Below are positions 47,607-62,830 of a stretch of DNA of 64,000 nt, one piece after another. The translations under genes were made by a program, and so were the position numbers. Positions within the stretch are counted from its first letter, which is position 1. The number at the start of each line of letters is the position of its first letter. The notes under the pieces were generated by a model. That model did no database searches. It had not been told where the DNA came from and was given only the letters and a program-made list of their open reading frames with translations. Origin of the DNA: Thauera sp. JM12B12 (GTDB taxonomy: Bacteria > Pseudomonadota > Gammaproteobacteria > Burkholderiales > Rhodocyclaceae); the NCBI RefSeq assembly GCF_039614725.1, contig NZ_CP154859.1, positions 2,790,001 through 2,854,000 of the forward strand. Direction: 5' to 3'.

Positions 47607-47827
47607 CGTCCGCCCTCCGCGGTGGTGCCCGTCGCGCCCACCGGCGTCTGCGCGGTCCGGGCGTCCCCCGCTGCATCAGGCCTCGTCTCGGTCGCCGTTG
47701 CGGCCACCGCCCCGCCCGGCACCGAGCGCACGATCAGACCGCAGGTGGCCCCTGCACTGCCCAGCAGCACGACCGCTGCGGTCGCGATCAGCGTGCGCCT
47801 CAGACGCCCTGGAAACGCATCCGCCAT
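47603..47827 (-). CDS. small single-pass membrane protein of unknown function
   Basis: 74 residues from the ATG at 47827 (GGGAGAG seven bases upstream), overlapping the end of the tupC-like gene by 28 bases. One helix (~13-32) is followed by a low-complexity Ala/Thr/Gly tail. It could be an exported or anchored peptide. No homology is recognised. Confidence 0.5.
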   Translation of the reverse strand: MADAFPGRLRRTLIATAAVVLLGSAGATCGLIVRSVPGGAVAATATETRPDAAGDARTAQTPVGATGTTAEGGR

Positions 47828-48534
47828 GGCAGCTCTCCCTGGATGAAAAGCCGCGCCTCGTCCGAGTGCGGCCGGCTGAAGAAGGCGCGCACCGAGGTGT
47901 GCTCGCACACCCGTCCGCCCGCCATGAAGACGATGTCATCGGCGAGCCGGGTGGCCTGACCGAGGTTGTGGGTGACCATCAGGATGCGCGTACCGTCGGT
48001 GCGGATCTCGCGGATGATGCGCTCGACCGCCGCGCTCGCCGAGGGGTCGAGGCTGGCCGTGGGCTCGTCGAGCAGCAACAGGCGCGGTCTGGTCAGCCAG
48101 GCGCGCGCGAGCGCGAGGCGCTGCTGCTCGCCGCCGGAGAGCCGGCGTGCGCTCTCGCCGGCGCGATCGGCCAGGCCGACGCGCTCGAGCATCTCCGCGC
48201 CCAGGCGGATGCGCGCGCGCGTCGACAGGTCGAGCGGCTTGAGCCCCAGGATCACGTTCTGCAGCACCGACATGCGCAGCATCATCGGGTGCTGGAACAC
48301 CATCATCACGCCCTGCGCGGGCCGTGGGCCGCGCGCGTTCCCCCACGCCAGCGTGCCGGCGGTTGGCTCGATGAGGCCGCAGATCGTGCGCAGCAGCACG
48401 CTCTTGCCCGCTCCGTTCGGGCCCAGCACGAGCGTGATGCCGTCGTCGCCGAGCTCGAGATCGACGCCCGCGAGCACCTCGCGTCCCTGGGGCGCGTAGC
48501 GCAGGCCGGAGATCCGCAGCGGGAAGATCGCCAT
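47800..48534 (-). CDS. tupC: ABC transporter ATP-binding protein, TupC type (tungstate)
   Basis: 244 residues. Walker A is GPNGAGKS (38-45), the signature LSGGE 132-136, and Walker B LLLLDEP 152-158, with the H-loop in MVTHNLGQATRLAD. With the adjacent permease it forms the energy-coupling part of a TupABC-like importer. Tungstate is inferred from the permease type and the neighbouring tungsten enzyme operon. The 20-base gap to tupB supports co-transcription. Confidence 0.83.
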   Translation of the reverse strand: MAIFPLRISGLRYAPQGREVLAGVDLELGDDGITLVLGPNGAGKSVLLRTICGLIEPTAGTLAWGNARGPRPAQGVMMVFQHPMMLRMSVLQNVILGLKPLDLSTRARIRLGAEMLERVGLADRAGESARRLSGGEQQRLALARAWLTRPRLLLLDEPTASLDPSASAAVERIIREIRTDGTRILMVTHNLGQATRLADDIVFMAGGRVCEHTSVRAFFSRPHSDEARLFIQGELPWRMRFQGV

Positions 48535-48554: not shown

Positions 48555-49259
48555 TCAGCCGAAGCGGCGCATCGCCCAGTGCCGCAGCAGGTAGGCGAAG
48601 GCGTTCAGCGTCAGGATGATCACGATGAGGACGATGCCGAGCGCGATCGCGAGCGGCAGATCGCCCTTGCTGGTCTCGAGGGCGATCGCGGTGGTCATCA
48701 CCCGCGTTGCGCCATCGATGTTGCCGCCGACGATCATCACCGCGCCCACCTCGCTCATCGCCCGCCCGAGGCCGGCGAGCACCGCGACCACCAGCGAGTG
48801 GCGGCAGTCGTGGAGCAGCGTCGTCACGCTGTCCCACCACGAAAAGCGCATCACGTGCAGTTCCTCGGCGTAGCGCGCCCACACGTCCTCGACCACCTGA
48901 CGGCTTATCGCCGCCATCAGCGGCACGACGAGCAGGGTCTGGGCGATGATCATCGCCGGCGCCGAGTAAAGCAGGCCGAGACCGCCAAACGGCCCGGAGC
49001 GCGAAAGCAGCAGGTACACGACGACGCCGACCACCACCGAGGGCAGGCCCATGAGGCCGTTGATCAGCACCGACAGCGCGCTCTTTCCCGGAAAGCGCCC
49101 CACCGCGATGCAGGCGCCCAGCGGCAGTCCGATCAGCGTGCCCAGCACCACCGCGCCACCGCTTACCTGCAGCGACAGCACCACGATCTCGGCCACGGTG
49201 TGGTCGAAGCTGGCGAGCAGGGACATGGCGTCGGAGAAGGTGGCGGCGAAGGCGGACAT
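48555..49259 (-). CDS. tupB: ABC transporter permease, TupB type (tungstate)
   Basis: 234 residues with five to six membrane helices. The EAA-like loop is AMSEVGAVMIVGGNIDGATRVMTTAI near 165-190, which is the hallmark of TupB/WtpB-like tungstate permeases. It starts with a short periplasmic N-terminus. A substrate-binding partner (TupA) is expected, but no such gene is found on either side in the window, so the binding protein must be encoded elsewhere or supplied by another system. Confidence 0.83.
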   Translation of the reverse strand: MSAFAATFSDAMSLLASFDHTVAEIVVLSLQVSGGAVVLGTLIGLPLGACIAVGRFPGKSALSVLINGLMGLPSVVVGVVVYLLLSRSGPFGGLGLLYSAPAMIIAQTLLVVPLMAAISRQVVEDVWARYAEELHVMRFSWWDSVTTLLHDCRHSLVVAVLAGLGRAMSEVGAVMIVGGNIDGATRVMTTAIALETSKGDLPLAIALGIVLIVIILTLNAFAYLLRHWAMRRFG

Positions 49260-50006: not shown

Positions 50007-50276
50007 TCAACCGCCGGCGATCGGCGGCCAGATCGCAAGCTCGTCACCGTCCTGCAGCCGCCGCCTGGGGCGCTCGCCCGGGGGCACGAAGTGGCCGTTC
50101 ACCAGCACCAGGTGCGCGCTGCGCTCGGGGACCTTGTAGCGGCGGATCATCTCCGCCACCGTCGTCCCCTCGTCGACCTCGAGCTCCAGGCGGTTGCCAC
50201 GATGGCCCGCCGGCAGGAAATCCGACAGCGAAGCGAAGAGCTTGAAGGCGATGCGGATCGTCACGCGGGTCTCCAA
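50007..50276 (-). CDS. aorD: MoaD/ThiS-like sulfur carrier of the AOR operon (AorD)
   Basis: 89 residues with a beta-grasp fold ending in the diagnostic Gly-Gly (WPPIAGG). The N-terminal IRIAFKLFASLSDFLPAG and central DEGTTVAEMIRRYKVPERSA match MoaD-type carriers. In molybdopterin synthesis the C-terminal thiocarboxylate delivers sulfur. A dedicated copy inside a tungsten-enzyme operon suggests a specialised dithiolene or cofactor-loading step. It is 11 bases after aorC. Confidence 0.85.
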   Translation of the reverse strand: METRVTIRIAFKLFASLSDFLPAGHRGNRLELEVDEGTTVAEMIRRYKVPERSAHLVLVNGHFVPPGERPRRRLQDGDELAIWPPIAGG

Positions 50277-50287
50277 ATCGTGCCTCC

Positions 50288-51580
50288 TCAGCGCGCCAGC
50301 GCCATCGGTTGCTGGCTGCGGGCGACGTAGGCGTCGACGAAGCCGAGCGGGTTGGCGAGCAGGCGCCCCTTCCAGTCGCCGAGCTTCACCTGCCCGTGGA
50401 TCAGCCCGCGCAGCGCGCCCACGTGCTGGGTCAGCCCGATCGAGGTGGCGCCGATCAGCACGTCGTCCTTGAACTGCAGGCTCAGATACCGGTAGCGCGC
50501 CTCATCCACGAGTTCCACGCCGCTGCCCCCGGCCTCGGGCTTCTCGCCCCACCATTGGCCGAACGAGGACGAGATCAGGCCGAGCGTGTCGAGCACGTTG
50601 ATGGCGAGCACGCCGTTCAGCTTCGCCTCCCCCGTGGTCGTGCCGCGCGCCATGTTCATCGCCGCGATGCGGGCCTGGTCGGCGGCATTGGGCTGGATGG
50701 CGGCAACGAGGTGCGCGCCGGTGAAGAGGTCGGGCGCCTCGGCCACATCGCCTGCAGCGAAGATGCCCGGCACCGAGGTCTCCATGCGGTCGTCCACCAG
50801 CACGCCCTTGGCGACATGCACCGCGGTTTCCTCCAGGAAGCCGACATTGGGCGCGACACCGGCGGCGACGATGACCAGGTCGCAGTCGAGGCGGTCGCCG
50901 GTCGACAGCGTCACCACCAGCGGCGCCTCACGCCCGCTCTCGCTGCCGCGGTCGATGCGCTGCACGCCCGCCGAGGTGACGACGCGGACCCCCTTGTCCT
51001 CCACCCAGCGCTTGATCATGCCGCCCGCCTTGGGCGTCATCATGCGCGGCACCATGCGGTCGCCCATCTCCACCACGGTGAGCTGCACGCCGCGCTTGGC
51101 GAGCGCTTCCATGATGATGCAGCCGATGAAGCCGGCGCCCAGCTGCAGCACGCGCGCGCCGGGCTTGGCGTGCGCGGCGATCGCACGCGCGTCCGCCAAA
51201 GTCCAGCAGGTCTGGACCTCGGGCAGATCGACGCCGGGAATCGGCGGGCGCACCGGATGCGAGCCGGTGGCGATCAGCAGGCGGTCGTAGTCCTCGAAGT
51301 GGCCATCGTCGAACAGCACGGTGCGCTTGTCGGTGTTGAGCGCGACCGCACGGCCGCGCAGCTGGCGGATGCGCAGGCGCTCGAAGTGGTCGGCACCCTT
51401 GCGCAGCCAGGTGCCCGACTCGTCGATGTTGCCCTCGAGCAGGTAGGGGATGGCCATGCGCGAATACGGCGGCGCGTCCTCGTGGCCGACCATGAGGATG
51501 TCGTCGCCCGGCGCGGCCTTGCGCAGGGTTTCGGCGGCGACGACCCCTGCAGGGCCGTTGCCGAGAATCAGGTGTTTCAT
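50288..51580 (-). CDS. aorC: FAD/NAD-dependent oxidoreductase subunit (AorC)
   Basis: 430 residues with the pyridine nucleotide-disulphide reductase fold: FAD site LILGNGPAGVVAAETLRKAA at residues 4-23, NAD site VLQLGAGFIGCIIMEALAKR near 145-164, and the FAD ribityl motif GIFAAGDVAEAPD near 273-285. No redox-active Cys pair is present. In the Aromatoleum enzyme the FAD subunit lets the tungsten protein use NAD+. It is directly downstream of aorB with a 59-base gap. Confidence 0.9.
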   Translation of the reverse strand: MKHLILGNGPAGVVAAETLRKAAPGDDILMVGHEDAPPYSRMAIPYLLEGNIDESGTWLRKGADHFERLRIRQLRGRAVALNTDKRTVLFDDGHFEDYDRLLIATGSHPVRPPIPGVDLPEVQTCWTLADARAIAAHAKPGARVLQLGAGFIGCIIMEALAKRGVQLTVVEMGDRMVPRMMTPKAGGMIKRWVEDKGVRVVTSAGVQRIDRGSESGREAPLVVTLSTGDRLDCDLVIVAAGVAPNVGFLEETAVHVAKGVLVDDRMETSVPGIFAAGDVAEAPDLFTGAHLVAAIQPNAADQARIAAMNMARGTTTGEAKLNGVLAINVLDTLGLISSSFGQWWGEKPEAGGSGVELVDEARYRYLSLQFKDDVLIGATSIGLTQHVGALRGLIHGQVKLGDWKGRLLANPLGFVDAYVARSQQPMALAR

Positions 51581-53499: not shown

Positions 53500-53979
53500 T
53501 CAGGCGGCGGCCGAAGCCGGGGTGTTGGCCTTGGCGGCCCAGGCGCGCATCTTGTCGATGCCGGTCCAGTCGGCGTCGACATAGGTGATGGCGCCGGTCG
53601 GACAGGCGCTCGCGCAGGCGGGGTTGCCCTCGCACAGGTCGCACTTCTGCACCTTGCCGGAGTCCTGGTTGTAGTTGATGGTGCCGAAGGGACAGGCGAT
53701 CGTGCACACCTTGCAGCCGACGCAGGTGTCCTCGAACACCATCTTGGCGCCGGTCGTGAGATCGATGCGGATTGCGTCCACCGGACAGGCATTCAGGCAC
53801 CAGGCCTCGGTGCACTGCGTGCAGGTGTAGGGCACCTTGCGGCCCTCGTGCTCGAAGTTGAACACCTTGATGCGCGACTTGCTCGGATTGATGACCCCGG
53901 TGTGCTCGTAGGAACAGGCCATCTCGCATTGCAGACAGCCGGTGCACTTCGCGGGATCAATGTGCAGTGCTTTCCACAT
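53500..53979 (-). CDS. aorA: four-cluster ferredoxin-like electron-transfer subunit (AorA)
   Basis: 159 residues from the ATG at 53979. Sixteen cysteines in four groups (12/15/18/22, 53/56/61/65, 86/89/92/96, 113/116/122/126) can hold four [4Fe-4S] clusters in the DMSO-reductase-type Fe-S subunit pattern (CTQCTEAWCLNACP, CVGCKVCTIACPFG). It would wire the tungsten site of AorB to the FAD subunit AorC. It is the first gene of the operon, downstream of a sigma-54 promoter. Confidence 0.93.
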   Translation of the reverse strand: MWKALHIDPAKCTGCLQCEMACSYEHTGVINPSKSRIKVFNFEHEGRKVPYTCTQCTEAWCLNACPVDAIRIDLTTGAKMVFEDTCVGCKVCTIACPFGTINYNQDSGKVQKCDLCEGNPACASACPTGAITYVDADWTGIDKMRAWAAKANTPASAAA

Positions 53980-54086
53980 CGATCGTCTCCTGAATCGTTG
54001 TTGTTCGCGGCCACTGCCAGCGCGCCACGGCGCACTGCCAAGGCCCCACAAGCGCCCCGCCGAGCGGAACGCCTATGCACTTTGAA

Positions 54087-54101
54087 GCATATGTCGTGCC
54101 G
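54087..54101 (-). promoter_or_regulatory. sigma-54 promoter of the aor operon
   Basis: On the minus strand CGGCAC-GACAT-ATGC keeps the GG and GC elements exactly 10 bases apart, with the start predicted near 54075, about 96 bases before aorA. An inverted repeat TATGTC-N6-GACATA (54090-54107) overlaps the -24 element. Confidence 0.65.
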
Positions 54102-54120
54102 GACATAGGTCAACCCGGGA

Positions 54121-56163
54121 TTACCCACCTCCCGACGCGCTGCGGCCGAGCTTGCGGTACAGGCGGTTGCGGCTCACGCCGAGCATGCGCGCAGCGGCGG
54201 AGAGGTTCCCCCCCACCTCGCGCATCACGCGCTCGATGAGCTCGACCTCGAGCTGATCGAGCCGGCGCCCACCCGCCCCGCCCGCCGGCAGCGCGAACGC
54301 CACATCGGCTTGCGCATCGTTGCAGCGCGGCGCGGGCGCCTGCTCGCTCTCTTCGGTGCACTCGGCCATGAACAGCTCCTCGGGCAGATGCACCGGCAGG
54401 ATCTCGCGCTCGTCCGGGTCGAGCAGCGCGACCGCGACCCGGATCACGTTCTGCAGTTGGCGCACGTTGCCCGGCCAGGCGTGGCGCTCGATGAAGCGCA
54501 TCACTTCCTCGCCGATGCGCACGCCCTCCAGCCCGGCATCGCGCGCCTCGCTGGCCAGGATGCGCTCGACGATGCAGCCGATGTCGCTGCGCTCGCGCAG
54601 CGGCGGCAGGCACACGGTGAGGCTGTTGACGCGGTAGTAGAGGTCCTCGCGGAACTCGCCGCGCGCCACCGCATCGCGCAGCACGCGGTGGGTGGCGCAC
54701 ACCAGCGAGATGTCGACCGGGATCGACTTCACCGAGCCGACCGGCGTCACGCAGCGCTCCTGCAGCACGCGCAGCAGCCGCGCCTGCATGCCCAGCGGCA
54801 TGTCGCCGATCTCGTCGAGGAAGAGCGTGCCGCCGTGGGCCTGCTGGATCTTGCCGATCGCGCCTTCCTTGCGCGCGCCGGTGAAGGCGCCGCCGACGTA
54901 GCCGAAGAGCTCGGACTCGATCAGCGTCTCCGGCACCGCGGCGCAGTTCAGGGCGACGAAGGGCTTGTCGGCACGCGGCCCGCTGTTGTGGAAGGCCTGG
55001 GCGAAGAGCTCCTTGCCCACGCCCGACTCGCCCTGGATCAGCAGCGGAATGTCCTTGCCGAGGATGCGGCGCGCGCGATCGAGGGCGCGGCCGATGCCGG
55101 CGTCGCCGGTCGCCAGCGAGGCGAGCGTGCAGGCCTCGCCGGCGGGGGCCGCGGCTCGTGCGCTGCGTGCACTCGTCGCGACCGGCTGGGCGTTCCCCTC
55201 GAAGGCGCGGATCTGCGGCCGCAGCGAGCGCAGCTGCACGTAGAGCTGGGCGCCGTCCTGCAGCGGCAGCCGGATCAGCGCGTCGTTCGAGTTGCGCGCG
55301 CGGTCGGCGATCCGCCCCAGGCCGTGGCGGAACAGCTCGGCGAACGCACTGCTGCCGCCGCAAGCCGCCACGCGCTGCGCCAGCCAGTCGCGCGCGATCG
55401 AGTTGGCGCCCACCATCACGCCGTCCGCATTCACCGCGATCAGGCCTTCCTGCAGGCTGCCGACGTATTCGGGACGTTCGTGGAAGGCGACCAGGATCTC
55501 GTTGGCGAACTCGGTCTCGAACAAGCGCTTCTCGATCAGCTGCACCGACAAGCGCACCAGCCCGAGCGAGTGGCGCTGGTGCATGCGCTCGTCGCAGGAC
55601 ACGTCGAGCACGCCCGCGATCGCGCCGCGCGGGTCGAAGATGGGCGACGCGGTGCAGGACAGGAAGCCGTTGTGGTCGAGGTAGTGCTCGGCACCGAGCA
55701 CCACCGCGGGCGCCTGCGCGGCGATCGCGGTCCCGATTGCGTTGGTGCCGCGCGCCGCCTCGCTCCAGCACGCGCCGGGCTGCAGCGCGACACGATGGGC
55801 GCGGTCGACGAAGTCGGCATCGCCCAGGCTATGCACGATCATGCCGCTGGGGTCGGAGAGCAGCACCATGCTGCCCGAGGCGCGGATCTGCTCGAACACG
55901 TGCTCCATGACCCCGCTGGCGTGCTCCACCAGCCGTGCGCTGCGCTCGCGCACCTCGGCGAGGCGCGCACGATCTCCATGCTCGCGCGCCTCACGGCAGT
56001 CGCGCTGCAGGCCGGACTCGCGGCATCGCAACCAGGAATTGAGGATCACGGAAGGCACGCCGTCCTCCGGACAACGCCCCTCCTCGAAGAACTGCCGGCG
56101 TGCAAGCCTGAAACGCTGGTCGCGACCAGCCTCGACAGTCGAAAGCCGTCCCATCGTGCTCAT
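54121..56163 (-). CDS. sigma-54-dependent transcriptional activator, AcoR family
   Basis: 680 residues from the ATG at 56163 (GGAGGAGAC directly upstream). Domains: N-terminal sensor with GAF-like region (~75-215), a PAS-like segment (~225-310), AAA+ domain (~345-580) with Walker A GESGVGKE (378-385), the sigma-54 contact loop GAFTGA (425-430), Walker B LFLDE (447-451) and Arg-finger region REDLYYR, and a Fis-type helix-turn-helix (~635-675, GGNLSAAARMLGVSRNRLYR). AcoR relatives sense small alcohols, diols or ketones. Its place between the aor and PQQ units makes it the probable regulator of both. Confidence 0.92.
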   Translation of the reverse strand: MSTMGRLSTVEAGRDQRFRLARRQFFEEGRCPEDGVPSVILNSWLRCRESGLQRDCREAREHGDRARLAEVRERSARLVEHASGVMEHVFEQIRASGSMVLLSDPSGMIVHSLGDADFVDRAHRVALQPGACWSEAARGTNAIGTAIAAQAPAVVLGAEHYLDHNGFLSCTASPIFDPRGAIAGVLDVSCDERMHQRHSLGLVRLSVQLIEKRLFETEFANEILVAFHERPEYVGSLQEGLIAVNADGVMVGANSIARDWLAQRVAACGGSSAFAELFRHGLGRIADRARNSNDALIRLPLQDGAQLYVQLRSLRPQIRAFEGNAQPVATSARSARAAAPAGEACTLASLATGDAGIGRALDRARRILGKDIPLLIQGESGVGKELFAQAFHNSGPRADKPFVALNCAAVPETLIESELFGYVGGAFTGARKEGAIGKIQQAHGGTLFLDEIGDMPLGMQARLLRVLQERCVTPVGSVKSIPVDISLVCATHRVLRDAVARGEFREDLYYRVNSLTVCLPPLRERSDIGCIVERILASEARDAGLEGVRIGEEVMRFIERHAWPGNVRQLQNVIRVAVALLDPDEREILPVHLPEELFMAECTEESEQAPAPRCNDAQADVAFALPAGGAGGRRLDQLEVELIERVMREVGGNLSAAARMLGVSRNRLYRKLGRSASGGG

Positions 56164-56220
56164 GTCTCCTCCGGGCGGCCTGGTCGCGTTCCACGCGAAT
56201 GGTCGCCTCAAATCTGTGGG

Positions 56221-56262
56221 TCCCACGGTTCGGAACGTAGCACTTGATCCGTATCGAAACAA
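56221..56262. promoter_or_regulatory. possible upstream activator sites for the cytochrome/PQQ-accessory promoter
   Basis: Two imperfect copies of a 7-N3-7 inverted motif: TCCCACG-GTT-CGGAACG (56221-56237) and TGATCCG-TAT-CGAAACA (56245-56261), 24 bases apart and about 145 and 120 bases before the -24 element. They resemble the sharper sites at 57770 and 60786. Confidence 0.35.
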
Positions 56263-56371
56263 ATGCCGTGCTCCGTCCGCCGTATCCCAGAGCAGGAATC
56301 CTGCCAGTTCGTACGAGCGCACACCACCCGAAGGCCTTCGCGGTCGCCGATCGAAGGCAATCGGCAACGCA

Positions 56372-56386
56372 TGGCACGCGGATTGC
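56372..56386 (+). promoter_or_regulatory. sigma-54 promoter of the cytochrome c-550 gene
   Basis: TGGCAC-GCGGA-TTGC is a full consensus match, with transcription predicted from about 56398, 42 bases before the cytochrome ATG. It is divergent from the AcoR-type activator gene. Confidence 0.85.
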
Positions 56387-56439
56387 AGTTGGAGTGTCAT
56401 CCGGGACTGCCGGATCAAGACCCGAACCGAACCACACCC

Positions 56440-56904
56440 ATGAGGATCAACAAGGTGAAGACAGCAACCTTGAAGGAGACACTGTTCCGCCGGCTCACAC
56501 TCGGTACCGCCACGCTCGCGATCACGGCCTCGGCCAGCCTCGCGATCGCCCACGGCGACGTCACGCCGCAGGCGGTGGACACCTCCAGCCTGACCCAGCT
56601 CGGCGAGGACTGGCGCATCGCCAACCCCTATCGCGGCAACACCGACGCCATCCGCATCGGCGACTCGGCCTTCAACCAGAACTGCGCGCGCTGCCACGGC
56701 CTAGGCGCGGTCTCGGGCGGCATCGCTCCCGACCTGCGCTTCCTCGAGCCGGGCGACGACATGGACGAGTTCTTCATCGGCAAGGTGCGCAACGGCGTCA
56801 CCCGCAACGGCGCGGTATACATGCCGCCATTCGAGGGCACGCTCACCCAGGAAGCCATGTGGGCAATCCGCGCATGGCTGGAGACGGTCCATGAAGCGCA
56901 ATGA
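56440..56904 (+). CDS. cytochrome c-550, PedF type
   Basis: 154 residues. A signal peptide (about 15-37, ending AIA-HGD) exports it to the periplasm. One c-type haem site C82-A-R-C85-H86, with a likely distal ligand Met128 in YMPPF. Length and motifs match the PedF cytochrome that takes electrons from PQQ alcohol dehydrogenases. A GTG at 56455 with AGGA upstream is an alternative start. It overlaps the solute-binding gene by 14 bases, so the two are co-expressed from the sigma-54 promoter. Confidence 0.88.
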   Translation: MRINKVKTATLKETLFRRLTLGTATLAITASASLAIAHGDVTPQAVDTSSLTQLGEDWRIANPYRGNTDAIRIGDSAFNQNCARCHGLGAVSGGIAPDLRFLEPGDDMDEFFIGKVRNGVTRNGAVYMPPFEGTLTQEAMWAIRAWLETVHEAQ

Positions 56905-57739
56905 CCGCCGCCGCTTCCTGCTCGGCGCAGGCGCCCTCGCGCTGCTCGCGGCCAGCCCGGTGCGGGCGGCCGCGGCCGAGCTGGAGCTCCAGCAGCCGGG
57001 CACCCTGCGGGTAGCGGTCTACGCCAACTTCGCGCCCTGGTCGGCAGCCGGCAAGGGCATCGACGTCGCCCTTGCCCGCGCACTCGCCGAGCGCCTCGGC
57101 CTGCAGCCGCAGATCGCCGAGTTCCCCGCCGACGAGAACATGAACGACGATCTGCGCAACATGGTCTGGCGCGGCCACTACCTCGGCACCAAGCCCGCCG
57201 ACGTGATGCTGCACGAGCCTGTCGACGTGCATTTCGCGGCGAGCAACCGCCAGGTGAAGATCTTCGCCCCCTACCACCTCGAGACCCTCGCGCTGGCGCG
57301 GATCGCCGAGCGCGTGCCGGCGCCCACGGGCTCGGCGACGGAGAGCTTCGCGGTGTTCGAGACCGAGCGCATCGGCGTGGAGCTCGACACCCACGCCAGC
57401 GACTTCCTCCTCAACCTGCGGGAGGGCGCCCTGCGGCCGAACGTCGTGCATTACCGCAACCTGGCCGAGGCGGCCAGCGCCCTCAAGGGCGGCGAGGTCG
57501 CCGCGGTCATGGGCACCCGCAGCGAACTCGAGGCCGCGCTGGGCGCGCATGCCGGCGTCGCCATCGACACGCTGGCGATGCCGGAACTGCGCCTCACCGG
57601 CTGGCCGCTCGGAATGGCGGTCAAGGCCGACAGCAGCCAGCTCGCCGAGGCGCTCTCCGGCGCCCTCGCGGATCTCCAGCGTTCCGGCGAGCTCAGCCGC
57701 ATCTTCGAAGCAAACGGCGTGCGCCACCGCGTGCCCTGA
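56891..57739 (+). CDS. quinoprotein dehydrogenase-associated solute-binding-like protein
   Basis: 282 residues. The N-terminus RNDRRRFLLGAGALALLAAS is a signal peptide, twin-arginine-like. The mature part is an extracellular solute-binding fold (GTLRVAVYANFAPWSAAGKG at the start, MGTRSELEAALGAHAGVAID later). This family (relatives of MoxJ/XoxJ) accompanies PQQ dehydrogenases and is thought to help their assembly rather than transport, with no ABC permease nearby. It overlaps the cytochrome gene, and a hairpin follows it. Confidence 0.85.
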   Translation: MKRNDRRRFLLGAGALALLAASPVRAAAAELELQQPGTLRVAVYANFAPWSAAGKGIDVALARALAERLGLQPQIAEFPADENMNDDLRNMVWRGHYLGTKPADVMLHEPVDVHFAASNRQVKIFAPYHLETLALARIAERVPAPTGSATESFAVFETERIGVELDTHASDFLLNLREGALRPNVVHYRNLAEAASALKGGEVAAVMGTRSELEAALGAHAGVAIDTLAMPELRLTGWPLGMAVKADSSQLAEALSGALADLQRSGELSRIFEANGVRHRVP

Positions 57740-57749
57740 GCAATGGAGC

Positions 57750-57785
57750 GTTCCGAAGCGCAGCGAACTTGTTGCGCTTCGGAAC
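57750..57785. terminator. bidirectional hairpin between the solute-binding and Cache genes
   Basis: GTTCCGAAGCGCA (57750-57762) and TGCGCTTCGGAAC (57773-57785) form a perfect 13-base stem with a 10-base loop between convergent genes. Its right arm contains the same TGTTGCG-N3-CGGAACA motif seen at 60786, so it may also be a protein-binding site. Confidence 0.7.
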
Positions 57786-57797
57786 ACCTTCTGCTCC

Positions 57798-58655
57798 TTA
57801 TTCCACGTAGTGCCCGACCCCGATCAGCGAACGTCCGTCGCGGCGCACGTAGGAACGCTTGTTCTCCACCCTGTTGGTCACCGGATTGCGCCAGACGTAG
57901 TCCACCGTGGCTTCGTCCGCCGCCTGCAGCTTGGCGATCATCTCGGCCACCAGCGCATGACCGGCCGCGTCGTGCAGGCCGAGCGCATCGGTGTCCGACA
58001 GCGCCGGGTTCATGCCCATCGCCTCGAAGCGGCCGCTGTCCATGTTCACCATGAACACGTAGAGGTCGTCCTTGACGAAATCGCCGCGACGATCGTTGAA
58101 GCGCGCGGCTGCCGCGGCATGGCCCTCGGTACGCGCCAGCGCCACCGCGCGATCGAGCATCGCCCGCGCATCGTCCGCCGTCGCCCGCGGCGCCGAATAG
58201 CCCACGCCCAGCACGTAGCCGCCCACCTTGCGCACGTAGCTCACCTTGGGCTCGACCTTGTTGGTGACGCGGTTGAGCCACATGTAGCGCACGGTCGCCT
58301 CCGGACTCACCCGTGTGCGCTCGATCATCTCGCGGAACAGCGGGTTGCCCGCGGCGTCGGTGGTGTTGAGCACGGTGAGGCCGACCAGGGCCTCGGGGGC
58401 GGCGCCGCTGGCGTGATAGACGCCCTGGTCGTCGATCACGAACACATACAGGTCCTTGCGCACGAACGCGCCCTGGCGGTCGTTGAAGGCCGCGAAGGCG
58501 CGCTCGGGGCCGTTCTGGTTCATGTAGTCGACCGCGCGCTCGAACAGCGCCTGGGCCTCGCGCGCGGTGGCGCGCTCGGCGGCGTGGGCGCCGAGGCTGG
58601 TCAGGGCCGCGATCGCGACGGCGGCCACCGTCCTGGTCATCGAGGTTTGCTTCAT
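57798..58655 (-). CDS. periplasmic tandem-Cache domain protein
   Basis: 285 residues from the ATG at 58655. A signal peptide (1-26, AHA-AER) is followed by two copies of a single-Cache unit (about 30-152 and 160-285). The copies repeat FNDRQGAFVRKDLYVFVID / FNDRRGDFVKDDLYVFMVN and NRVTNKVEPKVSYVRK / NPVTNRVENKRSYVRR. There is no membrane anchor or output domain, so it would be a soluble periplasmic ligand binder, perhaps for the alcohol or its product. It is downstream of the PQQ dehydrogenase gene on the same strand. Confidence 0.85.
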   Translation of the reverse strand: MKQTSMTRTVAAVAIAALTSLGAHAAERATAREAQALFERAVDYMNQNGPERAFAAFNDRQGAFVRKDLYVFVIDDQGVYHASGAAPEALVGLTVLNTTDAAGNPLFREMIERTRVSPEATVRYMWLNRVTNKVEPKVSYVRKVGGYVLGVGYSAPRATADDARAMLDRAVALARTEGHAAAAARFNDRRGDFVKDDLYVFMVNMDSGRFEAMGMNPALSDTDALGLHDAAGHALVAEMIAKLQAADEATVDYVWRNPVTNRVENKRSYVRRDGRSLIGVGHYVE

Positions 58656-58715
58656 CGTCTGGACTCCTTGTCTTGAAACATCTGCGCACGCCGCCTCGCG
58701 CGCGGCGCACAACGC

Positions 58716-58781
58716 GTTGCGGCCCGGGCGCTGCCGCGTCCGGGCCGCAACGAAGGGCCTTGGCGCCGCCCGCGGGCGGCG
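58716..58781 (-). other. strong hairpins between the PQQ dehydrogenase and Cache genes
   Basis: GTTGCGGCCCGG/CCGGGCCGCAAC (58716-58727/58740-58751) and CGCCGCCC/GGGCGGCG (58764-58771/58774-58781) follow the dehydrogenase stop. Neither has a T-run, so they may stabilise or process the mRNA rather than terminate it. Confidence 0.5.
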
Positions 58782-58788
58782 TTCGGGA

Positions 58789-60588
58789 TCAGCTCTTGTG
58801 CAGCTTGAACACCCACACCATGCCGCCCTGCTCGAGGTAGTTCACGCGCTTGGCGACGTCACCGCCCCACAACGGCACCGCGCCGCCCCAGCCGGACACC
58901 ACGGCCACGTACTGCTCACCGTCCATCTCCCAGGTCACCGGCGGCGCGATCACGCCCGAGCCGGTCTGGTACTGCCACACTTCGTCGCCGGTCTTGGCAT
59001 TGACGGCCTTCAGGTAGCCCTCGGGGGTACCGTAGAACACCAGGTTGCCGCCGGTGGTCAGCACACCACCCCACAGCGGTGCGTTGTTCTTGACCTCCCA
59101 CACGATCTTGCCGCTCACCGGGTCGACCGCGCGCATGGCGCCGATGTAGTCCTCGTACAGCGGCTTGATGGTGAAGCCCGCGCCCAGGTAGGCGGCGCCG
59201 CGCTTGTAGCTCACCGGCTCGTTCCAGATGTCCATGCCCCACTCGTTGGCGGGCACGTAGAACAGGCCGGTGTCGGGGCTGAAGGCCATCGGCATCTGGT
59301 TCTTGCCGCCGAGGAAGGACGGGGCGTTGAACACCACCTTGCCCTTGCCGCCCTCGACCGCGCCGCCCCCCTCGGTGAAGGGGTTGCCCGGGCGCTTCGA
59401 CTCATCGAACAGCGGCCGCCCGGTCTGCAGGTCGATGCCCTTGGCCCAGTCGATGCGGGTCACGAAGGGGAAGGCGTTCAACAGCTTGCCGTTGCTGCGG
59501 TCATTGACGAAGAAGAAGCCGTTGCGGTCGGCCTTGCCGCCGGCCTTCACCACCTGGCCGGTCTTCGGGTCCTTGTACTCGAAGGACACGAATTCGTTCA
59601 CGCCGTCGTAGTCCCAGCCGTCGTGCGGGGTGCTCTGGTAGTGCCAGGCGATCTTGCCGGTGTCGGGGTCGATGGCGACGGTAGCCGAGGAGTACAGGTT
59701 GTCGCCCGGGCGCAGCCAGGAGTTCCACGGCGCCGGGTTGCCGGTACCCATGAAGATCAGGTCGACATCGGGGTCGTAGTAGGCGGCCTGCCAGGTCGCG
59801 GCGCCGCCGGTCTTCCACAGGTCGCCCGGCCAGGTGGCGTTGGTCGTGCCGGAGATGCCGTTCTCGACCTTGTTGCCGTCCTTGTCGTAGGTGTAGCCCA
59901 TGTGGCCCTCGACCACCGGCCGCATCCACACCATCTTGCCGGTCCTCGCGTCGCGCGCCTCGACCCGGCCCATGACGCCGAACTCGCCACCCGACACGCC
60001 GGTGATGATCTTGCCCTTGACGATCTGCGGCGCCGCGGTCAGCGAGTAGCCGGCCTTGTAGTCGTCGACCTTCTCGCGCCACACCACCTTGCCGGTGTCC
60101 TTGTTGAGCGCGACGAGCTGGGCGTCGAGCGTGCCGAAGATCACCAGGTCGCCATAGATCGCGGCGCCGCGGTTGATCACGTCGCAGCACGGCATGATGC
60201 CCTCGGGCAGGCGGTGCTCGTACTTCCACAGCTTGGCGCCGGTCTTCACGTCGAGCGCGTAGATGCGGCTGTAGGAGCCGGTCACGTACATCTTGCCGTC
60301 GTAGATCAGCGGTTGCGACTGCTGGCCGCGCTGCTTCTCGCCACCGAAGGAGAACGCCCACACCGGCACCAGGTCCTTGACGGTGTCGACGTTGACCTTG
60401 GCGAGCGGGCTGTAGCGCTGCCCCTTGGTGCCCAGGCCGTGGGTGACGACCTGGTGCGTGGTCTCGGCGTCCTTGAGGATGTCCTCGTCGGTCACGCCAG
60501 CCGCCTGCGCGGCACCGATGCCCGCCAGCGCGATGGCGAGCGAACTCAGGGCGACGGTCAGGGACTGCCGCGGGTTGTGCTTCTTCAT
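58789..60588 (-). CDS. PQQ-dependent alcohol dehydrogenase, lanthanide-type (PedH/ExaF-like)
   Basis: 599 residues from the ATG at 60588 (GAGGAG upstream), with signal peptide 1-29. An eight-bladed propeller quinoprotein that oxidises alcohols in the periplasm. The vicinal disulphide C134-C135 lies in [10 protein letters not shown]. Metal ligands are E202, N284 and the catalytic D326. D328 in [10 protein letters not shown] is the extra acid that lanthanide enzymes (XoxF, PedH) have where calcium enzymes carry Ala or Ser. No cytochrome domain is fused, so electrons go to a separate cytochrome such as the one at 56440. Confidence 0.93.
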
Positions 60589-60674
60589 GTTCCACTCCTC
60601 CTCTTGTCTCTCTTGCGAATGGTGTCTTTCGCATGCCTTCCGGCGCCTTGGCTGAGCCGGACGATCAACAGACT

Positions 60675-60689
60675 GCAATCGCCATGCCA
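60675..60689 (-). promoter_or_regulatory. sigma-54 promoter of the PQQ dehydrogenase
   Basis: On the minus strand TGGCAT-GGCGA-TTGC, near-consensus with correct spacing; start predicted near 60663, a 75-base leader. Confidence 0.82.
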
Positions 60690-60784
60690 TGTACCGGGGC
60701 GCAGGCCTCAAGCCCTCCGCGGGCGGCAACGCTGCTCCAGCGTCGTCGAAACGCTCCTGCCCGCCCTGTAGCGGTGGAGCACAT

Positions 60785-60803
60785 CTGTTGCGGATCGGAA
60801 CAG
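60785..60803. promoter_or_regulatory. candidate activator binding site (19-base inverted repeat)
   Basis: CTGTTGCG-GAT-CGGAACAG, eight-base arms with one mismatch. Its centre is about 105 bases from the minus-strand -24 element and about 63 from the plus-strand one, suitable for an enhancer-binding protein. The core TGTTGCG-N3-CGGAACA recurs at 57770-57786. Confidence 0.45.
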
Positions 60804-60855
60804 GCGCGGACAGCGTCTTGCCGCGCACGGGCAGACGCAGCCGCCTGGCTGGCGC

Positions 60856-60870
60856 TGGCATGTGGCTTGC
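60856..60870 (+). promoter_or_regulatory. sigma-54 promoter of the SoxYZ-like / metallohydrolase unit
   Basis: TGGCAT-GTGGC-TTGC, near-consensus with exact spacing. The start is predicted near 60882, 69 bases before the ATG at 60951. Confidence 0.82.
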
Positions 60871-60950
60871 ATCGCGCAACCGCAAGGTGTTGGGCTGCGC
60901 GCGAGGGCGCGTTCGGCAGCGCGTCACCATGAGCTTGCCCGGGAGAGCCA

Positions 60951-61790
60951 ATGACTCACGTATCGATCGCCGCCAGCGGACTGCTGTGCGCCCTCTGCCT
61001 CGCACTGGCGGGGCTGGCCGCGCCGCTGTCGGCGCGCGCGGCCGCCCCTGCCGCTGCATCCGTCGCTGCACCCGGCACCACCGCCGGCGCACAAGCCGAT
61101 CCGCTCGACTCGCCGCGCTGGGAGGACATGAAGAAGGCCTTCTTCGACGGCCAGGCAGTGGTGTTCGACGAGCGCATCTCCGTCACCGGTCCGGCCGTGG
61201 CCGAGGATGCGCTCAACGTGCCGATCACCGCCGACGCCAGCGCCGTGCCCGGCGTCGAGGAGATGATCGTGTTCGCCGACTTCAACCCCATCCTGAAGGT
61301 GCTGCGCTTCGAGCCCGGTGCGGCGCGCGCGAGCCTGGGCTTCCGCATCAAGCTCCAGCAGTCCTCGCCGATCCGCGTCGCGGCGCGCACGGTCGATGGT
61401 GTCTGGCGCGTGGGCGGCACCTGGGTGACGACCACCGGCGGCGGCTGCACCCTGCCCTCGCTCGGCTCGGGCTCGCCCGAATGGCAGGAGCGCCTCAACG
61501 AGGTCAACGGACGCCTGTGGCCGCGGATCGGCGGCGGCGAGCGCCTGCGCATGCGCGTCATCCATCCGATGGACACCGGCCTGGCGGCCGGCATCCCCGC
61601 CTTTCACATCGAGGACATCGTGATCACCGACGAGGCCGGTCAGGTGCTGAGCCGCATCCAGCCGCTCGAGCCGGTCGCGGAGAACCCGAGCTTCACGCTC
61701 GACTTCGCCGCAGCCGCACCCGGCACCCGTATCCATGTCGGCGGCCGCGACAACAACGGCAACCGCATCGACGCCTGGGTGACACGATGA
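60951..61790 (+). CDS. quinoprotein dehydrogenase-associated SoxYZ-like carrier protein
   Basis: 279 residues from the ATG at 60951 (GGGAGAG upstream), with a signal peptide (1-31). Residues ~55-170 resemble SoxY, with the carrier Cys166 in WVTTTGGGC (SoxY normally ends GGCGG; here the loop continues). Residues ~190-279 resemble SoxZ. In thiosulfate oxidation this pair carries the substrate on the Cys. The fused form occurs beside PQQ dehydrogenases, where its cargo is unknown. It overlaps the next gene by four bases. Confidence 0.87.
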
Positions 61791-62830
61791 TGCGCCCCGC
61801 CCAGCCCCTGCCCACCACCGTGCTGGCCCACCACACGGTGGCCGTCCCGGCCCTGCGCCGGGTCGGCGCCGCGCTGATGCTGCTCGTCCTTGCCATGATG
61901 GCCACGCCGGCCTTTGCCAACGCCCCCTCCGACACCCGCTCGGACACCCACTCCGACGCGTTCGACTACCGGCTCGCGCCGCGCGAGCTCGCGCCGGGCG
62001 CCTATGTCATCGTCGGCCTGAAGGAGGATTTCAGCTTCACCAACGGCGGCAACATCGTGAACACCGGCTTCCTGGTCGGCACCGAGGGCGTGATCGTCAT
62101 CGATACCGGCCCCTCCCGGCGATACGGCGAACAGATGCTGGCGGCGATCCGCCGCGTCACCCCGCTGCCGGTGGTGCTCACCCTCAACACCCATCACCAT
62201 CCCGACCACTTCCTCGGCAACCAGGCCTTCCCGCCCGCCACGCTCGCCGCGCTGCCGGACACCCTCGCCGCCCTGCGCGGCGAGGGCGAGGCCTTCAACG
62301 CCAACATGTACCGCCTCAACGGCGACTGGATGCGCGACACCGAGGTGGTCGTGCCCGGCCGCGCCCTCGCCCCCGGACGCCAGCGCATCGGCGGGCGCGA
62401 CGTGGAGCTCGTCGCCCTCGGCGGACATACGGTGGCCGACCTGGTGGTGGTGGACCATGACAGCGGCACCGTCTTCGCCGCCGACCTCGTGTTCAACGGC
62501 CGCGCCGCCACCACGCCACATGCCGACGTCGCGCGCTGGCTCGCGGCGCTCGACGCGCTCGAGCGCCTGCCGGCCAGGCGCTGGGTGCCCGGACATGGCG
62601 AGGTCGCCACCGACACCGCGCCGCTGCACGAGACGCGCGACTGGCTGCGCTGGCTCGCCGACACCATCCGCAGCGCCGCCGAACAGGGCCTGGACATGAA
62701 CGAGGTGTTCGCGATCCCGATCCCGCCGCGCTTCGCCGGCCTCGCCCTCGCCGAGCAGGAGTTCCGGCGCTCGGTCACCCACCTGTTTCCGGCGGCGGAG
62801 CAGGCCGCACTCGCCGCGCGCACGCGCTAG
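61787..62830 (+). CDS. quinoprotein relay system zinc metallohydrolase
   Basis: 347 residues with a signal peptide ending near 45 (AFA-NAP). Metallo-beta-lactamase fold with a complete metal set: NTHHHPDHFLG (HxHxDH), GGHTVAD, FAADLVFNG and the final PGHGE. The family always travels with the SoxYZ-like carrier and PQQ dehydrogenases, and its SoxH-like relatives suggest hydrolysis of something bound to the carrier Cys. The substrate is unknown. Its ATG overlaps the SoxYZ-like stop. Two ATG codons stand in tandem (61787, 61790). Confidence 0.87.
   Translation: MMRPAQPLPTTVLAHHTVAVPALRRVGAALMLLVLAMMATPAFANAPSDTRSDTHSDAFDYRLAPRELAPGAYVIVGLKEDFSFTNGGNIVNTGFLVGTEGVIVIDTGPSRRYGEQMLAAIRRVTPLPVVLTLNTHHHPDHFLGNQAFPPATLAALPDTLAALRGEGEAFNANMYRLNGDWMRDTEVVVPGRALAPGRQRIGGRDVELVALGGHTVADLVVVDHDSGTVFAADLVFNGRAATTPHADVARWLAALDALERLPARRWVPGHGEVATDTAPLHETRDWLRWLADTIRSAAEQGLDMNEVFAIPIPPRFAGLALAEQEFRRSVTHLFPAAEQAALAARTR

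Follow-up and report, generated by a model that had tools for sequence, protein, structure and literature searches.

The ped cluster of Pseudomonas putida, as presented in the accessible part of PMC12997753, includes the cytochrome PedF, a PedG-like protein, a SoxYZ-like carrier, a zinc hydrolase and a PedH-type pyrroloquinoline quinone (PQQ) dehydrogenase, and the regulators described for it are AgmR, PedS/PedR and EraSR. Counterparts of these genes are present in an island of a single-contig 4.17-Mb Thauera genome (G000), within the 64,000-nucleotide stretch G000:C1:2790001-2854000 that was analyzed as a whole and is termed the window. The Thauera island differs from the P. putida cluster in having a built-in sigma-54 activator, designated Reg1, and in being adjoined by aor genes for a tungsten aldehyde oxidoreductase (AOR). 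The words rpoN and AcoR have no matches in the accessible text of PMC12997753, where the sole match to sigma54-dependent concerns CbrB. The aor operon shares with aorABCDE of Aromatoleum aromaticum EbN1 a three-subunit tungsten AOR with MoaD-like genes (PMC6365974); the accessible part of that source has no matches to regulator, promoter or sigma and describes no transcriptional control. In the same genus, BmoR of Thauera butanivorans is an alcohol-responsive sigma-54 activator of the alkane monooxygenase promoter, according to the accessible part of PMC6366067, and its likeness to Reg1 is a functional parallel; its targets differ and include neither a PQQ dehydrogenase nor an AOR. Among the matches listed, titles and abstract openings describe no sigma-54 control of AOR, of PedF/PQQ dehydrogenase or of the formaldehyde-oxidation genes fhc-fae in these genera, which is weak evidence of absence. 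AcoR-type enhancer-binding proteins consist of a GAF domain, an AAA+ domain and a Fis-type helix-turn-helix (HTH), an architecture that Reg1 shares with different target genes. The favored reading, which is given a probability of roughly 0.57, is that the Thauera ped cluster is under the predicted control of Reg1 and that the neighboring aor-tup operon is partly drawn in. A putative sigma-54 alcohol-oxidation regulon under Reg1 is the well-supported part of this reading, and extension of the regulon to aor appears likely.

Sigma-54 promoters were searched for with the strict -24/-12 pattern TGGCAYN5TTGCW, for which the reversed pattern served as control. The strict pattern matched 17 sites in the 4.17-Mb genome compared with one for the control, and exactly three perfect sites occur in the window, before pedF, the PQQ dehydrogenase gene (PQQDH) and the SoxYZ-like gene. 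When 17 positions were placed at random in 200,000 simulated trials, 455 trials had any three of them inside 4.5 kb. All 54 loci that pair a Reg gene with pedF (53 distinct, as L145 duplicates G007) have the pedF site with no more than one mismatch. This set comprised 15 genomes with G handles, loci L111-L148 minus the duplicates L113, L117 and L121, and L155-L158, L160, L161 and L164; L101-L110 were omitted as duplicates of genomes with G handles, and no Reg-pedF pair was obtained from L123, L138 or L142. Loci L157, L158, L161 and L164 also entered the aorA comparison and the activator tree described below, L160 also entered the tree, and L155 belongs to the Reg-pedF set. Nine genomes were aligned across the PQQDH-SoxYZ gap: all nine have a strict site on the SoxYZ side, and seven have one on the PQQDH side, where G007 and G026 read TTGCG instead. 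Gene maps of relatives, covering loci up to L149, and alignments demonstrate that Reg1-class genomes share a layout in which Reg1 faces pedF-pedG and PQQDH faces SoxYZ-hydrolase, and the Reg-pedF pair is more widespread among relatives than this whole layout. A preliminary description of this DNA had proposed four sigma-54 promoters, the fourth before aorA. All four -24/-12 elements stand at the positions given there, and three of the promoters are firm, being strict and conserved, but the aorA element is degenerate with two mismatches. The conservation in relatives that the description suggested checking holds for those three at the frequencies above; at aorA the GG-N10-GC spacing is conserved next to the activator and the boxes are degenerate.

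The activator assigned in the preliminary description as AcoR-type, with intact GAFTGA and Walker motifs, is borne out by the domains and motifs of Reg1. The protein comprises GAF, sigma-54 AAA+ and HTH_8 domains, with the Walker A motif GESGVGKE at residue 378 and GAFTGA at residue 425. The AAA+ domain with these motifs and the C-terminal Fis HTH fit a sigma-54 enhancer-binding protein, rpoN being present in the genome, and the N-terminal GAF domain and lack of a receiver domain fit the AcoR type. The likeness to AcoR is one of architecture only: no acetoin genes occur among the annotated neighbors of Reg1, which were inspected without a search of the genome. The nearest named match is from Thauera sp. 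THA1 (96%), and Thauera provides the closest named relatives as judged by the activator. In 52 of the 54 Reg-pedF loci a sigma-54-like element that faces the Reg gene is retained with two mismatches or fewer (at most one in 35; none in L111 and L125), and many Dechloromonas, Zoogloea and Azonexus loci have it without any mismatch. Because the Reg-facing sites are kept in 52 of 54 loci, Reg1 is itself probably sigma-54-driven, from a predicted promoter that the preliminary description lacked and whose copy in G000 has two mismatches. Assignment of the same positions (56291-56306) to an enhancer palindrome was dropped, as the perfect Reg-facing sites in the latter three genera favor a Reg promoter.

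The candidate enhancer is the palindrome TGTTSCGNNNCGGAACA, of which only two perfect copies exist genome-wide, both within the island. A conserved form, TGTTGCGnnnCGGAACA, is present in the PQQDH-SoxYZ gap with at most one mismatch in 9/9 aligned genomes, and the palindrome upstream of PQQDH is kept to the same tolerance in all 11 Reg1-class genomes with the region in hand. No copy with two or fewer mismatches was detected in the fetched stretches of five genomes of a paralogous class, Reg3 (G001, G002, G003, G006, G017). Several observations weigh against the role of the palindrome in the favored reading. The copy between Reg1 and pedF lies within two mismatches in just seven of the 12 Reg1-class genomes with that gap in hand. 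At two or fewer mismatches there is no enrichment genome-wide (28 copies vs. 22 in the control), and at three or fewer the window holds 12 copies compared with 11.4 expected. Loci L144, L114 and L129 hold copies with at most one mismatch, yet their activators fall outside the Reg1 clade, so the palindrome is strongly, though not exclusively, linked to Reg1. The perfect copy in the convergent gap may belong to a terminator hairpin, and searches by pattern and by matrix found no enhancer motif within 700 bp ahead of aorA (G024: 357 bp) in 11/11 Thauera genomes. Because the island's own copies went into the matrix, high island scores are circular and only the low aorA scores are informative. Separately, positions 57749-57786 contain an inverted pair of enhancer-motif copies in the convergent gap, which may serve as a terminator for both directions, as an enhancer decoy or in both roles.

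The genes, their sites, the conservation of these sites and their linkage are direct observations on the sequence. In the mechanism proposed, alcohol or aldehyde would be sensed via the GAF region of Reg1, which would bind the palindromes between the divergent promoters. Sigma-54 RNA polymerase would then fire pedF-pedG, the lanthanide-type PQQDH, the SoxYZ-zinc hydrolase pair and probably Reg1. The aor-tup operon downstream of Reg1 would probably be joined to this regulon via a degenerate sigma-54 site, putative read-through from Reg1, or both, and would come only partly under Reg1 because it retains a sigma-70-type promoter of its own. If this is true, Thauera and its kin run lanthanide-type alcohol oxidation via sigma-54 and small-molecule-sensing activators, unlike the ped regulators of Pseudomonas, and a regulatory handle on bacterial tungsten aldehyde oxidoreductase becomes available. 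The conserved motifs render the Reg1 regulon directly testable, and activators that sense alcohol or formaldehyde could be useful as biosensors.

Judged in the G000 sequence alone, the GG-N10-GC element before aorA is borderline: shuffling the region upstream of aorA 1000 times gave a site of matching quality in 48 cases, and sites with two or fewer mismatches number 21 in the window. Comparison with relatives, in counts that exclude the duplicates L101-L107 and L145, revealed GG-N10-GC with at most three mismatches before aorA in all 23 loci adjoining an activator of the Reg1/Reg2 type, 17 of which have two or fewer. The element occurs in one of 18 other loci (G039) at either threshold, and at three or fewer mismatches in none of ten same-genus aorA loci that are not adjacent to Reg1. 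The 23 activator-adjacent loci derive from Thauera (12), Aromatoleum (six), Azoarcus spp. Aa7, L1K30 and E21, Parazoarcus and one Zoogloeaceae metagenome-assembled genome (MAG); in G020, where the contig starts at this point, adjacency was read from the end of the activator coding sequence upstream of aorA. The contrast of 23/23 with 1/18 at three or fewer mismatches gives a Fisher p of 1e-10, which is overstated because of relatedness among the rows, a post hoc threshold and the rate at which shuffles reach three-mismatch sites. The aorA site of Aromatoleum toluolicum is perfect (TGGCATGATATTTGCA), and the six Aromatoleum loci bear sites with zero to two mismatches and no match to the -35/-10 expression that is described next. 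Dismissal of the aorA element as a plain misreading of a sigma-70 promoter was withdrawn, as GG-N10-GC tracks activator adjacency in Aromatoleum, Azoarcus, Parazoarcus and L111.

The points that weigh against control of aor by Reg1 center on the same short region. Three-mismatch sites were reached by 128-206 of 1000 shuffles. The GG-N10-GC site overlaps a conserved sigma-70-type pair, TTG(A/C)-N16-TATnCT, that 21 of the 22 aorA loci of the genus retain regardless of whether Reg1 is there, and this conservation, taken alone, favors a sigma-70-type promoter for aorA. Nine of the 21 loci with the pair lie away from Reg1, and GG-N10-GC with three or fewer mismatches is present in none of these nine. 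All 12 Thauera loci have ATGC as the -12 box of aorA, and the aor loci of G017 and G002, which stand behind a Reg3-class activator, are without GG-N10-GC at the aligned position. The pair and its occurrence away from Reg1, the lack of an enhancer near aorA and the ease with which shuffling yields an equally good G000 site would all suit an explanation in which Reg1 governs the ped/PQQ units only, aor is a separate sigma-70-type operon with a GGGTNNTCCC operator, the proximity of the two is hitch-hiking and GG-N10-GC is coincidental. This explanation is doubtful; against it stand the way in which GG-N10-GC follows Reg1/Reg2-type adjacency across genera and the Aromatoleum sites that have no -35/-10 match. 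Dual promoters that join aor at least partly to Reg1 are probably the better description of the pattern. Just upstream of the -35, 11 of the 12 Thauera loci adjacent to Reg1 carry the palindrome GGGTAATCCC exactly, and GGGYNTTCCC variants were seen by eye in nine of ten other same-genus loci. As an observation in its own right, the GGGTNNTCCC palindrome upstream of the aorA -35 occurs even in same-genus loci without Reg1 and is a candidate operator for an aor regulator. In locus L074 (G039, another family) TGGCAGGGTTATTGCA stands 79 bp before aorA on a stretch that also has pedF and PQQ dehydrogenase genes, and in G003 and G013 (L084, L086) the gene divergent from aorA encodes a TonB-dependent receptor, perhaps involved in metal uptake.

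An activator gene immediately precedes aorA in Thauera, Aromatoleum, Azoarcus, Parazoarcus and a MAG of the Zoogloeaceae. A tree of 67 activator rows, drawn from part of the available loci, places Thauera Reg1 (with L111), Thauera Reg2 and Reg3 in separate supported groups; further separate supported groups are formed by Aromatoleum with one MAG, L124, and by Azoarcus/Parazoarcus with Thiobaca and the Thauera genomes G014, G018 and G022. Adjacency to aor as labeled on this tree entails 7-8 changes, with G020 and G027 labeled as having no AOR because of contig ends. The aor genes of G017 and G002 follow a Reg3-class gene, behind an aldehyde dehydrogenase and a DUF779 gene, which is a separate association. 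Among 61 relatives, AorB was found in 29 and a PQQ dehydrogenase or homolog in 35. In G000 the third paralog, Reg3 (L050, G000:C1:2939673-2941679; 56%), adjoins an aldehyde dehydrogenase gene, to which relatives add a DUF779 gene.

The preliminary description took Reg1 to be the only regulator in the island. This does not hold: Reg2, a 679-aa paralog of Reg1 with 62% identity, is encoded at G000:C1:2854007-2856046 (window coordinate 64007 onward), 7 bp past the window edge, and Reg1 is the sole regulator only between aor and that edge. A second activator 7.8 kb from the Reg1 gene is a further point against the favored reading. Reg2 adjoins an operon for nicotinamide adenine dinucleotide (NAD) formate dehydrogenase (fdsGB-fdsA), where TGGCACAGGGCTTGCG (2856215) recurs in 6/6 genomes with no more than one mismatch. 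The fhcB-A-D-C, fae and pabB genes lie at G000:C1:2866189-2874195, with fhcB below its model cut-off, and a strict sigma-54 site at 2874331-2874346 precedes this formaldehyde-oxidation operon (loci L003, L165). Twenty of the 61 genomes yielded fhcB, and 15 of these belong to the same genus; a strict site precedes the gene in all 15, and a site with at most one mismatch in none of the other five. A Reg2-clade gene ends the fhc-fae operon in G002 and G003, where the genes were identified by likeness to G000 proteins, and in the maps of G017, G006, G013, G001 and G023 the gene-size pattern matches a Reg2-clade gene at the end of this operon. Thus placed, Reg2 seems, from gene neighborhood, to serve formaldehyde and formate oxidation.

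With Reg2 3.1 kb from the SoxYZ promoter and the C-terminal helices of the two activators very similar (SRNTLYRKLGR and SRNRLYRKLGR), Reg2 instead of Reg1, or both by HTH cross-talk, might drive the PQQDH and SoxYZ promoters between them. This is improbable: G007 retains the PQQDH-SoxYZ palindrome with one mismatch and has no Reg2 of more than 70% identity in its fetched stretch, and the other Reg2-clade genes in hand adjoin formaldehyde or formate genes. Reg1 and the one-carbon set are separable, because three Reg1 genomes that are at least 98% complete (G007, G020 and G024) are without fhcB. In G010, a genome that is 68% complete, Reg2 and fds are present with no fhcB match. The paralogous Reg1 and Reg2 probably divide labor as predicted activators. 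A modular switchboard covering the full oxidation of alcohols and one-carbon compounds, with Reg1 assigned to the lanthanide-type PQQDH system and part of the tungsten AOR, and Reg2 to the tetrahydromethanopterin fhc-fae genes and NAD formate dehydrogenase, is offered tentatively, at slightly less than even odds. If true, lanthanide-type, tungsten and molybdopterin enzymes would be under one sigma factor. Reg1 had also been described as the master switch of a complete alcohol-to-acid pathway. The activator does stand beside a conserved, sigma-54-promoted PQQ system, but with Reg2 nearby, a degenerate aorA site over a sigma-70-type promoter and the enhancer missing at aorA, a single master switch is a plausible idea that should give way to a pair of sister activators with differing loads.

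The features of the window are collected in Table 1. PedF, the SoxYZ-like carrier, the zinc hydrolase and the PQQ dehydrogenase of a ped-type cluster are all in the island, as are the aorA, aorB and aorC operon and the MoaD-like gene of an Aromatoleum-type tungsten AOR. Lanthanide-dependent PQQ dehydrogenases are marked by an Asp two residues after the catalytic Asp. The WDYDGVNE motif of PQQDH resembles that of 6zcv/6zcw (WDFDGVNE) and differs from that of 1flg (WDFSGNNE), which points to an enzyme of the lanthanide (PedH-like) type, as judged from the motif. The genome also carries pqqE.

Table 1. Genes and sequence elements of the Thauera island, in window coordinates.
Feature	Position	Strand	Remark
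ATP-binding cassette (ABC) ATPase	47800..48534	-	TupC-like label from position alone; no tungstate model above cut-off
Tungstate-type ABC permease, TupB-like	48555..49259	-	NF038017 above cut-off; TupB NF041773 below cut-off
MoaD/ThiS-like protein (aorD-like)	50007..50276	-	
aorC, flavin adenine dinucleotide subunit	50288..51580	-	
aorB, tungsten-cofactor subunit, 615 aa	51640..53487	-	PF02730
aorA, iron-sulfur subunit of tungsten AOR	53500..53979	-	naming after PMC6365974 (accessible part)
GG-N10-GC element before aorA, CGGCACGACATATGCT	54086..54101	-	degenerate sigma-54 site, 2 mismatches
Sigma-70-type -35/-10 pair TTGACC-N16-TATGCT	54086..54113	-	overlaps aorA GG-N10-GC element
Palindrome GGGTAATCCC	54117..54126	-	just upstream of aorA -35; possible operator
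Reg1, GAF / sigma-54 AAA+ / HTH_8 activator, 680 aa	54121..56163	-	
Enhancer candidate TGATCCGTATCGAAACA	56245..56261	.	2 mismatches; between Reg1 and pedF
Sigma-54-like element toward Reg1, TGGCAGGATTCCTGCT	56291..56306	-	2 mismatches
pedF sigma-54 promoter, TGGCACGCGGATTGCA	56372..56387	+	strict consensus
Cytochrome c-550 PedF	56440..56904	+	TIGR04494 above cut-off
Periplasmic binding protein	56891..57739	+	PedG-like by gene order, as in ped cluster of PMC12997753 (accessible part)
Enhancer candidate, perfect copy	57770..57786	.	convergent gap between PedG-like and Cache genes
Cache-domain protein	57798..58655	-	
PQQ alcohol dehydrogenase (PQQDH)	58789..60588	-	WDYDGVNE motif
PQQDH sigma-54 promoter, TGGCATGGCGATTGCA	60674..60689	-	strict consensus
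Enhancer candidate TGTTGCGGATCGGAACA, perfect copy	60786..60802	.	between divergent PQQDH and SoxYZ promoters
SoxYZ-like gene sigma-54 promoter, TGGCATGTGGCTTGCA	60856..60871	+	strict consensus
Quinoprotein-associated SoxYZ-like carrier	60951..61790	+	TIGR04557 above cut-off
Quinoprotein relay zinc metallohydrolase 1	61787..62830	+	TIGR04558 above cut-off

The Cache-domain protein downstream of PQQDH has a ligand-binding fold and recurs in most Reg1-class maps. Elsewhere in the genome, a strict sigma-54 site (L052, G000:C1:2902574) precedes a second PQQ-dehydrogenase-like cluster that also has hydrolase and SoxYZ-like genes.

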